Positions 19,148 through 25,432 of a stretch of DNA of 64,000 nucleotides are shown one piece after another. The stretch's first letter is position 1. Every line of letters starts with the position of its first letter. Source of the DNA: Chloroflexota bacterium. Lineage in GTDB: Bacteria; Chloroflexota; UBA11872; VXOZ01. The notes under the pieces were generated by a model. The model ran no database searches and was not told the origin of the DNA. It worked only from the letters and a program-made list of their open reading frames with translations. The stretch is taken from the NCBI GenBank assembly GCA_958295775.1, contig CATQHC010000009.1, forward strand, positions 310,001 to 374,000, given 5' to 3'. Both the position numbers and the translations under genes were made by a program.

Positions 19148-19305
19148 GGGGTCATTGCCCTCTACAAAACGAAATCGCGCCGCGAAAGACGGCGCGCAAT
19201 TTTCTGCCGTGTGCAGGAATTATGGTACCACGCAGTTAAGTAGATTCGCTGAGGCAGGGCGCTTGCCGACAATCAAGCCGGACCTAACGCGAGGCATCCC
19301 ATGTG

Positions 19306-20772
19306 CTAGCGCACACGAGGAATAGCCTGTTCAATATCGACATCGCCCGCCAAAACGCATGCACGCAGCGCAGAAGCCAATGACAGGTCACTTGAGAGGG
19401 GGTCAATTGCTGTCTCAGCAGGCAAAGCTTCTTCGGTGTCAAAATCCAAGGCCATCGCTTCATCTCCAACAACTAGGCCCCAGACCGCGCGGCTGCCGCG
19501 AGCGCCGTCCACACAATGGTCGCATCCTGCGGCCACGTATACCTTTGCGGTAGTAGGCGCGCGGAGGAAATTCGCTTCGTCCAGTGTGATGGTTCGTTGC
19601 GCTCTGCAATCCAGGCAGAGCTGCGGTACAAGGTTACACTCGCTGACTGCAAGGAGGTAGCGTGCCAATTCGCGTCGGCCAAAGCCAACTTCGAAGAGAT
19701 GCCTCAAGGCGGCAACACTCGTCGCAGCCGGCGACTGAACCAAGACTGCCGTTCCGGCGGCAAGCGCGCCAATCAAACTCTCCACCTGGACGCCACTGGC
19801 AACCCGGTCCACCATGACCACATCTGGGCCCAACCTCATTGCGGCCTGCCAGAGCTCGACGCCGTCTGTATTCTCGTCGTGACTCCCATCAAGGTGCACG
19901 ATGCTTTCTGATTGGTAATTGAGCGCCCGGTCAATGGAAACTATCAGCTTTCCCTTAGCGCCCATATAATCTGCCAAAGCCAAACGATGCTGTTGCACGA
20001 TGCGATCATGGCTGCCGGCAAGCACTAGCAGACCGGGCTTTCCTGAGAGTAATCCTCGCAGCTCCTTGCTCTGTATTGGTGTATATCCCAAGCATTCGAG
20101 GGTCTGCACTTCACCTGAATGAAAGAATTGCAGTTGCAGGTGCTCGCCAGCCAGTGTCTGCAAGACGCTTACGCGCACCTGGGCAGAGAGGTTTTCGCCC
20201 GTATGCCTGAAGATGGCGGCGCTCGTTGACCCAGTTTCCCCGTCGCCCAATGATGCCAAGGCCTTGAGTTTCTCCTTCAGCAGGTTTCCCAGGTCGCGTT
20301 CCACGCGCACAATTTCTCTAAGTTTGTCCCCATTGCGCAGGAGCAACCGGTCGCCGTCTTCAATTGGCATCACGTAGAGGTCACTTGCTCGCGCCGCCAT
20401 ACTCACGAGCAGCAGCATATTCGCCACTTCGCCCATGCCGGACTCAATTCCCTCCACGCAAATTTCGGGGAGATCGTCAATGCCATGTTCGACGAGTATG
20501 GCCGTGAAGAGTCGGAGCAACACGGCGATTCTTTCTCGATGCACAGCGAGATCTGCGGCAGCCTCCGCCACGTCACAATCGCTAAACTGCAACAGCGCGT
20601 CCTGCTTGCTTGCCTTGAGGATGCCATCCTTCACTAGGCGATAGACCTGGGCCCGGCTCAGGGAGAGTCGCACCATCACTTCCGCTACACCAAGCGTGGC
20701 ACTTTCGTGCGGCTGGCCGTCTGCAGGCGAATCTGTTGTCCGACCTATTGTGTGCCGGCCCTCTTTTGCCAT
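19306..20772 (-). CDS. Degenerate GspE/PilB-like protein with N-terminal helix-turn-helix
   Basis: 488 residues. Residues 27-75 (LGVAEVMVRLSLSRAQVYRLVKDG onward) look like an excisionase/MerR-type helix-turn-helix. The rest follows the secretion-ATPase layout of GspE/PilB: ASDLYVMP (128-135) replaces the SDIHI motif, GYTPIQSKELRGLL (229-242) precedes the P-loop, PDVVMVDRV (316-324) is at Walker B, and a zinc site CLDC...CDHC (386-420) is intact. Key residues are lost. The P-loop reads LAGSHDRIV instead of GPTGSGKTT, the GEIRD glutamate is missing, and the His-box STLHTN is VQSPAA. It should not hydrolyse ATP. The ATG has GAGGAA seven bases ahead and overlaps the MscS gene by 28 bp. Role unknown; a regulatory or scaffold function is inference. 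Confidence 0.75.
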   Translation of the reverse strand: MAKEGRHTIGRTTDSPADGQPHESATLGVAEVMVRLSLSRAQVYRLVKDGILKASKQDALLQFSDCDVAEAAADLAVHRERIAVLLRLFTAILVEHGIDDLPEICVEGIESGMGEVANMLLLVSMAARASDLYVMPIEDGDRLLLRNGDKLREIVRVERDLGNLLKEKLKALASLGDGETGSTSAAIFRHTGENLSAQVRVSVLQTLAGEHLQLQFFHSGEVQTLECLGYTPIQSKELRGLLSGKPGLLVLAGSHDRIVQQHRLALADYMGAKGKLIVSIDRALNYQSESIVHLDGSHDENTDGVELWQAAMRLGPDVVMVDRVASGVQVESLIGALAAGTAVLVQSPAATSVAALRHLFEVGFGRRELARYLLAVSECNLVPQLCLDCRAQRTITLDEANFLRAPTTAKVYVAAGCDHCVDGARGSRAVWGLVVGDEAMALDFDTEEALPAETAIDPLSSDLSLASALRACVLAGDVDIEQAIPRVR

Positions 20773-21584
20773 AGGTATTCCTCGCCCGTCAGACTTATGT
20801 CCTTCGCCGGGATCGTTACCGCTAGACCGGCGTCAGCAAATTCCTTGCGCAGCTCAGTGATCAGTTCCCCGTAGAGGTTTACGGACTTTGCAGCCGTCCA
20901 GGCCAGCAGTTGGGCTCTTTCTACCTCTGCCGTTACTTCCAGCATCTTGAAGCGTGGGGCCGGATCATCCAAGATCGCGGTGTGGGTACGCAGCCTCTCC
21001 AATGCGATGTCCTTTACCCAATCGAGGTCCTCCTCATAGGCAACCGCCAGCGGAATCTGCAGCACTCGCATGTCGTAGCTGGAGTGATTGATGATCTTAT
21101 TTCGCCAAAGCACTGAATTCGGCACCACGATGCGGGCATTGTCCAAGGTAAGCAGACCGGTGTAACTCAGATTTACGTGGGTGACAAACCCGATTTGCTG
21201 CGGCGGGCCGAACTCGACCAGATCGCCTTTGCCGAAAGGCTTGGCGCCCAACATCATCAAACCCGCGAAATAGTTTGCAATAGAACGCCGGGCGCCCATG
21301 CCGATGATGATGCCGGTGATGCCAACCGAGACTAAGAACGACTCGATTGGAAATCCAATTTGCTTAAGCGCCGCCGTGAGCATGATCGCCAAGAAGAAAT
21401 AGCGGGTGAATGTGCTCACATAACCCCACGTAATCTCGTCCCAGCCAACCTTCACCACGAGGCTGTCAACGCTGCGCTTGACCCAGTAGGAGCCAATCCA
21501 GCCGACGGACGCAATGAGCAAGGCGCCGACTAGCGATGGCAGGAAGTCTCGGAGGTAAAGAAGAAACTCATCGAGAACGGTCAT
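20745..21584 (-). CDS. Small-conductance mechanosensitive channel (MscS family)
   Basis: A 279-residue membrane channel. Three hydrophobic helices (about 12-35, 55-80, 84-112) end in the pore helix region GITGIIIGMGARRSIANYFAG. A beta domain follows, with PFGKGDLVEFG and the conserved VVPNSVLWRNKIINHS (about 155-170). Such channels open under membrane tension during hypo-osmotic shock. The usual Gly/Ala-rich pore packing is only partly kept. It lies upstream of, and overlaps by 28 bp, the degenerate GspE-like gene, so the two are probably co-expressed. Confidence 0.9.
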   Translation of the reverse strand: MTVLDEFLLYLRDFLPSLVGALLIASVGWIGSYWVKRSVDSLVVKVGWDEITWGYVSTFTRYFFLAIMLTAALKQIGFPIESFLVSVGITGIIIGMGARRSIANYFAGLMMLGAKPFGKGDLVEFGPPQQIGFVTHVNLSYTGLLTLDNARIVVPNSVLWRNKIINHSSYDMRVLQIPLAVAYEEDLDWVKDIALERLRTHTAILDDPAPRFKMLEVTAEVERAQLLAWTAAKSVNLYGELITELRKEFADAGLAVTIPAKDISLTGEEYLWQKRAGTQ

Positions 21585-24009: not shown

Positions 24010-24594
24010 ATGCTTGCCGACCGCATGTTCCGTGCCGCCATGCTGGATTCGCTAGTCTTCGACGAGATTAAAGCAGACCGCACGGCCACAACCCAGGCCG
24101 TGCAGGTTGTCATCATCATTGCAGTCATCGGCATTATCAGCACGCTCGTACAGACGCTCAACTCTACGGTAGAGTCTGCGGTTCAGCCCGAAGCCATCAC
24201 CAGCATCGCGACCTCCGCGGCTACTGCGGTTGTCGGTTGGCTGCTCTGGGCCTTCCTTGCCTATCTCTTGGGCACCGCGGTCTTTGGCGGGACAGGCAGC
24301 TACGTGGAAATGCTGCGCGCAATCGGATTTGCGCAATCGCCGTCAGTTATTTCCATTCTCTCCGTTCCTCTGGTTTTTGTCCCGGTGGCCGGGGCGGTTT
24401 TGGGGGGCCTGCTGGGCGTTGCGGCGGCGCTTTGGGTCCTCATTGTCGACGTCATCGCAACGCGGCAGACCCTGGGCATAAGCACCGGCAAGGCAACGAT
24501 TATCACTGTCATAGTATCCATAGTAATGGTCGTGTCGTTCGTGGCGATAACGATTGCGCTGTTTCCCGAAAACTTCCAACTTGAAGGAGTTTGA
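24010..24594 (+). CDS. YIP1-family membrane protein (tandem copy 1)
   Basis: A 194-residue membrane protein with five predicted helices. It starts MLADRMFRAAMLDSLVFDEIKADRTATTQAVQVVII. The core helices include ATAVVGWLLWAFLAYLLGTAVFGG and SYVEMLRAIGFAQSPSV, the YIP1 pattern in which a helix-end 'R-x-x-G-x-A-x-x-P' follows the 'W-x-x-x-x-x-x-x-G' helix. Bacterial members have no established biochemical role; eukaryotic YIP1 proteins act in membrane trafficking. A paralogue of equal length and matching motifs lies 250 bp downstream, so this is a tandem duplication. Confidence 0.75.
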   Translation: MLADRMFRAAMLDSLVFDEIKADRTATTQAVQVVIIIAVIGIISTLVQTLNSTVESAVQPEAITSIATSAATAVVGWLLWAFLAYLLGTAVFGGTGSYVEMLRAIGFAQSPSVISILSVPLVFVPVAGAVLGGLLGVAAALWVLIVDVIATRQTLGISTGKATIITVIVSIVMVVSFVAITIALFPENFQLEGV

Positions 24595-24844: not shown

Positions 24845-25432
24845 ATGCTTGTCAACCGTATGATCCGAGCGGCGATGCTCGATCCTCGTCTCTATGAGGA
24901 GGTGGAGCACGACCGTTCTGCAACCAGTCAAGCGATGCAGGTGGTCATCATCGTGGCCCTTGCGAGTGGCATCGGCGGCGCGATCTGGAAGCTCATCACC
25001 CTCAGTCCGATCGACGCGGTAACGGGTCTCATCGGCGGCATCCTTGCCGCAGTACTCGGCTGGCTGGTCTGGGCGTTTGTCACCTACATTATCGGCGACA
25101 AAGTTTTCGGCGGCACCGCCACCTACGGCGAGATGCTCCGCACGCTCGGTTTTGCCCAGTCGCCAAACGTGCTTCTCATCTTCACAGGCATTCTTGGTGG
25201 CATTCCGTTGTTTGGCGGCTTGCTGCGGTTAGCCCTGCTTATTTGGGTTCTTCTCGCAGGCCTCATCGCGATCCGGCAGGGGCTCGACGTGAGTACCGGC
25301 AAGGCTATCTTAACCGCCATCATCGGCTGGATCATCATGGCAATTGTCATCGCGATTATCACCTCTGTATTTGGCATTGGTATTACGGCAGAAGAGACTG
25401 AGGCTGTGTTAGGGACACTTGCTGTCGGCTAG
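24845..25432 (+). CDS. YIP1-family membrane protein (tandem copy 2)
   Basis: A 195-residue membrane protein with five predicted helices, starting MLVNRMIRAAMLDPRLYEEVEHDRSATSQAMQVVII, close to copy 1. It shares the WLVWAFVTYIIGDKVFGGTATYGEMLRTLGFAQSPNV block, and its C-terminal helices (LDVSTGKAILTAIIGWII) align with copy 1. GAAAGGAAGA lies just before the ATG. Function unknown, as for copy 1. The identical topology and clear similarity show tandem duplication followed by divergence, and the proteins may form a heteromer. Confidence 0.75.
   Translation: MLVNRMIRAAMLDPRLYEEVEHDRSATSQAMQVVIIVALASGIGGAIWKLITLSPIDAVTGLIGGILAAVLGWLVWAFVTYIIGDKVFGGTATYGEMLRTLGFAQSPNVLLIFTGILGGIPLFGGLLRLALLIWVLLAGLIAIRQGLDVSTGKAILTAIIGWIIMAIVIAIITSVFGIGITAEETEAVLGTLAVG

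Follow-up and report, generated by a model that had tools for sequence, protein, structure and literature searches.

What can a protein still do when it has the fold of a pilus or secretion assembly motor, lacks the motifs through which such motors handle ATP, and carries a helix-turn-helix (HTH) domain at its front? Pseudoenzymes are well known among the kinases and some AAA+ proteins. The gene considered here lies in a 64,000-bp stretch of a Chloroflexota contig (the window, to which all positions refer unless another locus is named) and is a full-length ORF with an ATG start that encodes a pseudo-ATPase of the GspE/PilB type (Table 1). We put at about one in two the probability that it regulates its own mscS operon by binding DNA, with the dead motor fold as an oligomerising and sensing scaffold. 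The relatives of the protein, its motifs and predicted folds, the machinery of its genome, the selection acting on it and its genomic setting are considered in turn, together with the explanations that compete with this one.

Table 1 Features of the pseudo-ATPase gene and its surroundings, with positions in the window
Feature	Position	Strand	Basis
HTH + pseudo-GspE/PilB protein, 488 aa	19306..20772	-	ORF, Pfam/PDB homology, orthologues, purifying selection
MerR/BldC/RacA-like winged helix-turn-helix, residues 25-64	20581..20700	-	HTH_17, fold prediction, conservation
Predicted long amphipathic helix (65-95), residues 65-98, possible dimerisation helix	20479..20580	-	structure prediction
N2D-like domain of GspE/PilB, residues 113-228; ASDLYVMP for ASDIHIEP	20089..20436	-	family profile, alignment, fold comparison
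RecA-like domain without catalytic motifs, residues 229-380	19633..20088	-	family profile, alignment, fold comparison
Former Walker A, residues 253-261; GPTGSGKTT -> GSHDRIVQQ	19990..20016	-	alignment
Former Asp box, residues 279-286; TIEDPxEY -> SIDRALNY	19915..19938	-	alignment
Former Walker B, residues 315-323; DPDVILVGE -> GPDVVMVDR	19804..19830	-	alignment
Former His box, residues 345-352; His -> P348	19717..19740	-	alignment
First CxxC (C386, C389)	19606..19617	-	invariant in 5/5 members
Second CxxC (C417, C420)	19513..19524	-	invariant in 5/5 members
mscS, 279 aa, first gene of the two-gene unit	20745..21584	-	Pfam MS_channel_2nd 7.5e-15; co-occurrence
mscS/pseudo-ATPase overlap, 28 bp, identical length in four species	20745..20772	-	ORF coordinates
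GAGGAA, ribosome-binding-like, within mscS, 5 nt 5' of the pseudo-ATPase ATG	20778..20783	-	sequence
GCGTGGTACCATA, conserved upstream of the next MFS gene; switch point of cassette and flank ancestry in G005	19221..19233	-	alignment, scan of the G005 contig

Relatives and distribution

Full-length orthologues were found in three of the five other species of the genus (49–55% identity; 61 genomes searched), and a further relative, a C-terminal fragment of 220 residues with 42% identity that is cut by the start of its contig, in a genome from another family of the class (G020). None of these orthologues has intact Walker motifs, the HTH is present in 3/3 of the full-length ones, and the loss of the motor motifs is common to all members in which they can be read. 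A profile search of all 41 genomes of the class added no members. In 400 genomes of the phylum, the further matches were all other T2SSE proteins, much weaker, starting at query residue 81 or later and never covering the HTH. Across the 41 genomes of the class and the 400 of the phylum, no fusion of an HTH with a pseudo-GspE was found outside the family. A scan of genome contigs with the single sequence gave no match, while the same scan with an alignment recovered the Chloroflexi MAG contigs SB0662_bin_44 and jk18x7bins.44, which agree in length and match with the contigs of G005 and G002. Among the matches listed for the plasmid and phage collections there were only ordinary GspE-type proteins, aligned from residue 115 or later, and the viral scans returned one T2SSE relative and no member of the pseudo-ATPase family. 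An HTH-GspE fusion was not found in the literature searched either, a kind of miss that is weak evidence. Neither the genome searches nor the papers searched thus gave another case of a pseudo-GspE core joined to a MerR-like HTH.

A GspE/PilB core without its ATP motifs

The first-pass annotation of the window had assigned the protein to the GspE/PilB type, and sequence and fold comparisons lead to the same family. The Pfam model T2SSE, which takes in the PilB, PilT, GspE and CpaF types, matches residues 121–441 with 75.7 bits (cut-off 24.9, E-value 3.5e−21), and the NCBIfam GspE/PilB models match with scores far under their equivalog cut-offs. The sequence matches in the PDB were EpsE, GspE and PilB (1e−14 with the single-sequence query), and a query with the family profile reached 1p9r at 1.9e−24; the order of N2D, RecA-like domain and tetracysteine site over residues 107–451 is the one of GspE/EpsE and PilB/PilF (T2SSE; 1p9r, 4pht, 5tsh). 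A full-length AlphaFold2 model from three sequences had low confidence (pLDDT 51), too low for reading the form of the old nucleotide pocket. Foldseek with this model placed EpsE first (1p9r, 8.3e−17), with the GspE-GspL complex 4pht among the top matches, and VIA-align gave Z of about 14 for EpsE, GspE and PilB, with a large rmsd because the domain orientation is poorly set. A GspE-like core, RecA-like domain included, was therefore predicted by structure prediction and HMM comparison alike. From the N2D domain to the tetracysteine site the protein follows GspE/PilB, as had been claimed, although the motif described there as SDIHI-like actually reads ASDLYV.

Motifs were compared with 27 canonical Chloroflexi relatives, all of which (27/27) keep GKT and GE. 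The P-loop, the Walker B Glu and the His box, reported as replaced from the sequence alone, are indeed replaced in this alignment, and the Asp box is lost too. Walker A, SGPTGSGKTT in the canonical proteins, has become AGSHDRIVQQ, with [AT]GS-x-x-R-x-x-Q in the four readable members (4/4), while in all five members the Asp box IED has changed to [IV]D[RG], Walker B VGE to [LV]D-x and the His-box His to P or Q. Most of the Arg-rich N2D strand is also lost. As the fragment from G020 does not include the Walker A and HTH regions, the loss of the former and the presence of the latter are shown for four members.

Four cysteines, C386, C389, C417 and C420, are invariant in the five members and are arranged as CxxC-x27-CxxC; the zinc-binding C-x2-C pair of the first-pass annotation is thus kept as far as the cysteines go, but the site really consists of two CxxC pairs. 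The corresponding tetracysteine site of EpsE has the spacing CxxC-x29-CxxC, is found in assembly ATPases and absent from retraction ATPases, and is required for EpsE activity (PMC5061722). Because a site that retraction ATPases lack has been kept, the ancestor of the pseudo-ATPase was most likely an assembly-type (tetracysteine) motor. The four cysteines form a putative zinc site. In a tree, a distance of about 10 substitutions per site separates the family from the canonical proteins, which makes the assignment of an exact parent unsure.

Two GspE-like proteins of other Chloroflexi (L072:748–2634 in G122 and L088:716–2602 in G192) likewise lack the His box, with QSPDS in its place, an apparent partial loss of motor motifs, and have LPRLC before the first CxxC. 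Unlike the pseudo-ATPase family, they have an intact Walker A (GxPGMGKT), GE and MshEN, and in the tree they are not sister to the family, a placement that the long branches make unsure.

The N-terminal domain

A winged HTH and a 31-residue helix occupy the position that MshEN has in assembly ATPases; MshEN gave no match in the pseudo-ATPase (Pfam) and is present in the canonical L012 as well as in L072. The HTH_17 model scored 21.8 bits, under the Pfam cut-off of 27; below that cut-off, it was found in all four full-length members. Modelled alone, the N-terminal fragment (pLDDT 79 overall, about 88 where it is ordered) showed two helices, then a wing and the 31-residue helix, and the Foldseek neighbours were the DNA-binding domains of RacA (top), BldC, Xis, GlnR and SoxR, with probabilities of 0.98–1.00, E-values of only about 0.02–0.15 and TM-scores of 0.70–0.78 against the RacA and BldC domains (normalised by target). 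The excisionase/MerR-like HTH that had been proposed for the front of the protein is supported by these fold neighbours and agrees with the sub-threshold HTH_17 matches. The head shares the helix-turn-helix, wing and long helix of the MerR/BldC/RacA/Xis proteins, from which it differs in its weak sequence score and in being fused to a pseudo-motor of roughly 380 residues.

The HTH (residues 25–64) is the most conserved segment of the protein, with 57% of its positions invariant vs. 36–39% for the N2D, RecA-like and zinc parts (four sequences), and among windows of 40 residues conservation peaks in the one from residue 32 onwards (permutation p about 0.01). Along the long helix, hydrophobic residues follow a near-heptad spacing in the sequence (V68, A72, L75, I82, L86, F89, L93), a pattern that would fit a dimerisation helix of the MerR/RacA kind.

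Absence of a pilus or secretion machine

In the source genome (95% complete), the pseudo-ATPase is the only protein over the T2SSE cut-off; no other GspE, PilB, PilT or CpaF passed it, and the check for a true pilB suggested by the first-pass annotation likewise found none over the cut-off. The platform protein T2SSF (PilC/GspF/TadB/C) gave no match in 8 of 8 genomes (six from the genus, two from a neighbouring family) and was present in 12/12 relatives with ordinary T2SSE. With no second T2SSE over the cut-off and no T2SSF, a role as a pilus or secretion motor is very unlikely. Judged by its sequence, the pseudo-ATPase is clearly homologous to GspE/PilB, yet it lies outside the functional motor class by the defining features: GspE/EpsE and PilB have Walker A, the Asp box, the Walker B Glu, the His box, MshEN and, as assembly ATPases, a cognate platform protein, none of which was found here.

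A different fusion was observed in two other Chloroflexi genomes (L012:331–2676 in G059 and L013:343–2676 in G047), where PilB-like ATPases about 780 aa long, their Walker motifs intact, begin with restriction-endonuclease-like domains of the Mrr type ahead of MshEN (Mrr_cat 1.8e−9, two stretches in L012), an unusual combination of a nuclease-like part with a pilus motor.

Selection on the gene

For the full-length ORFs, dN/dS of the pseudo-ATPase (NG86) is 0.22–0.34, with no stops and with several pairs near-saturated in dS, vs. 0.05–0.12 for mscS and 0.07–0.16 for the MFS gene (NG86). Set against the 0.05–0.16 of the neighbours, these values indicate a constraint that is relaxed but real. 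No segment of the gene had dN/dS > 1 where dS was computable, and between clades MscS is 86–88% conserved vs. 48–54% for the pseudo-ATPase. A pseudogene is disfavoured by the dN/dS well under 1 and the intact ORFs.

A two-gene unit with mscS

The overlap of 28 bp with an mscS gene, part of the original description, is exact, and an overlap of the same 28-bp length is found in the three full-length orthologues. The order sugar-isomerase-like gene, mscS, pseudo-ATPase and MFS gene recurs in four species (in G005, the upstream part is lost at the contig end). Both mscS and the pseudo-ATPase are present in four genomes of the genus and both are absent in the other two (G003 and G004), where the isomerase-like and MFS genes adjoin with neither cassette gene present. 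In addition, the flanks of G005 are close to G003 (dS 0.18–0.47), whereas its cassette is near the G001 cassette (dS 0.16–0.21, compared with 0.5–1.1 for the flanks of G005 and G001), and a scan of the G005 contig located a sharp switch of ancestry at the 13-bp motif TATGGTACCACGC, which lies immediately upstream of the MFS gene. This breakpoint is known from one contig, and an assembly chimera seems unlikely at a shared stretch of such shortness; the motif at the junction, GCGTGGTACCATA, does not recur as a genome-wide repeat. Read from these sequences, the pair would have been gained, lost and apparently exchanged together, and the joint absence and shared exchange suggest that mscS and the pseudo-ATPase act together, or at least travel together.

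The region upstream of the MFS gene (window 19166–19235), made up of GCGTGGTACCATA, an inverted repeat rich in G+C and a T-rich stretch, shows strong conservation in six species, whether they have the cassette or not, and looks like a conserved terminator or leader element.

In G020, the fragment is located in a different setting in which no close mscS was found, the upstream side being missing from the assembly. About 5 kb from this fragment, a gene for a TIR-domain protein (L068:6129–6830; TIR_2 1.1e−16) adjoins another mscS-like gene.

Possible functions

The reading we favour, with a probability of about 0.5, is a regulator made together with MscS. A tetracysteine-type assembly ATPase of the GspE/PilB kind would have lost its nucleotide chemistry, its MshEN being replaced by a winged HTH of the MerR/BldC/RacA kind and the long helix that follows. 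The HTH, dimerised through this helix, would bind operator DNA, probably at the promoter of the mscS operon, while the dead N2D-RecA-zinc module would serve for oligomerisation and sensing, switched by contact with a protein or ligand instead of by ATP. Binding to DNA and to zinc, oligomerisation, an operator and any influence on mscS are what we infer here. In favour of this reading are the conservation and predicted fold of the HTH, the loss of the ATP motifs beside kept cysteines, the purifying selection, the lack of detected pilus partners and the constant pairing with mscS. Against it stand the sub-threshold HTH_17 score, the weak E-values of the fold neighbours and the region upstream of mscS, where neither the window nor G001 has an inverted repeat of 8 bp or more, no shared operator-like repeat was found, and a promoter scan gave a match at chance level only. 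A precedent for signalling by such a protein exists in Myxococcus xanthus, where an ATPase-deficient PilB variant still signals, regulating a pathway although it builds no pili, and the form without nucleotide is regarded as the one that signals (PMC5544727). The PilB of M. xanthus, however, is a real motor with a pilus, while the pseudo-ATPase lacks both catalytic motifs and machine and has a DNA-binding-like head. If this reading is true, it would show that a motor fold surviving without its machine and catalytic motifs can be put to regulatory use. The constant link with mscS offers a specific candidate partner and operator. More tentatively, and with distinctly lower probability, this could be a new family in which a pilus or secretion motor, its ATP chemistry all lost, was exapted as a DNA-binding regulator or DNA-membrane scaffold, moving between species with a mechanosensitive channel and reporting or controlling the state of the channel or of membrane tension.

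In the main rival to regulation of mscS, the dead module might dock on the cytoplasmic cage of MscS, either as a lid for gating or as a partner in assembly, and the HTH would tether DNA to the membrane in the manner of RacA or serve for protein contacts only. This would agree with the constant 28-bp overlap and the joint presence and absence with mscS, with RacA as the top fold match of the head, and with the binding of canonical GspE/PilB to inner-membrane partners, the GspE-GspL complex 4pht being a top match. We consider such a scaffold unlikely, given that MscS is conserved far above its supposed partner (86–88% vs. 48–54%) and that no MscS channel is known to need a partner of this kind.

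Somewhat less probable still is a mobile two-gene accessory cassette with a role in stress or defence, MscS being the effector channel and the fast-evolving HTH/pseudo-GspE protein the sensor and switch. Its patchy presence, a pseudo-ATPase that evolves much faster than mscS, and the different ancestry of cassette and flanks in G005, which switches sharply at the conserved 13-bp motif, point in this direction, but only weak HTH similarity to mad1 was found and no match to a defence family, for which reason a defence gene identified by family match is disfavoured. The lack of segments with dN/dS > 1 where dS could be computed, the metabolic look of the neighbouring genes and the viral, phage and plasmid collections, in which the matches listed went no further than ordinary GspE, also speak against such a cassette.

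That the gene is a decaying, functionless relic of a lost pilus or secretion motor we hold to be very improbable: in its favour, all catalytic motifs are lost, the constraint is relaxed (0.22–0.34 vs. 0.05–0.16) and the genome is without a machine, but full-length ORFs persist in four species, most pairs being near-saturated in dS, dN/dS is well under 1, the HTH, cysteines and overlap are conserved, and the N-terminal domain is one not seen in the canonical relatives examined. Least credible is an enzyme that uses nucleotides through a non-canonical pocket (G253-S254-xx-R257-xx-Q260, with D281 and D322 at the old Walker positions), since the P-loop Lys/Thr, the Asp-box Glu, the Walker B Glu and the His box are gone, as is most of the N2D strand rich in Arg, even if those replacement residues are invariant in the readable members.

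Elsewhere in the window, two tandem genes (24010–24594 and 24845–25432) encode Yip1-domain membrane proteins that are paralogues of each other, and the pair is conserved in G001.
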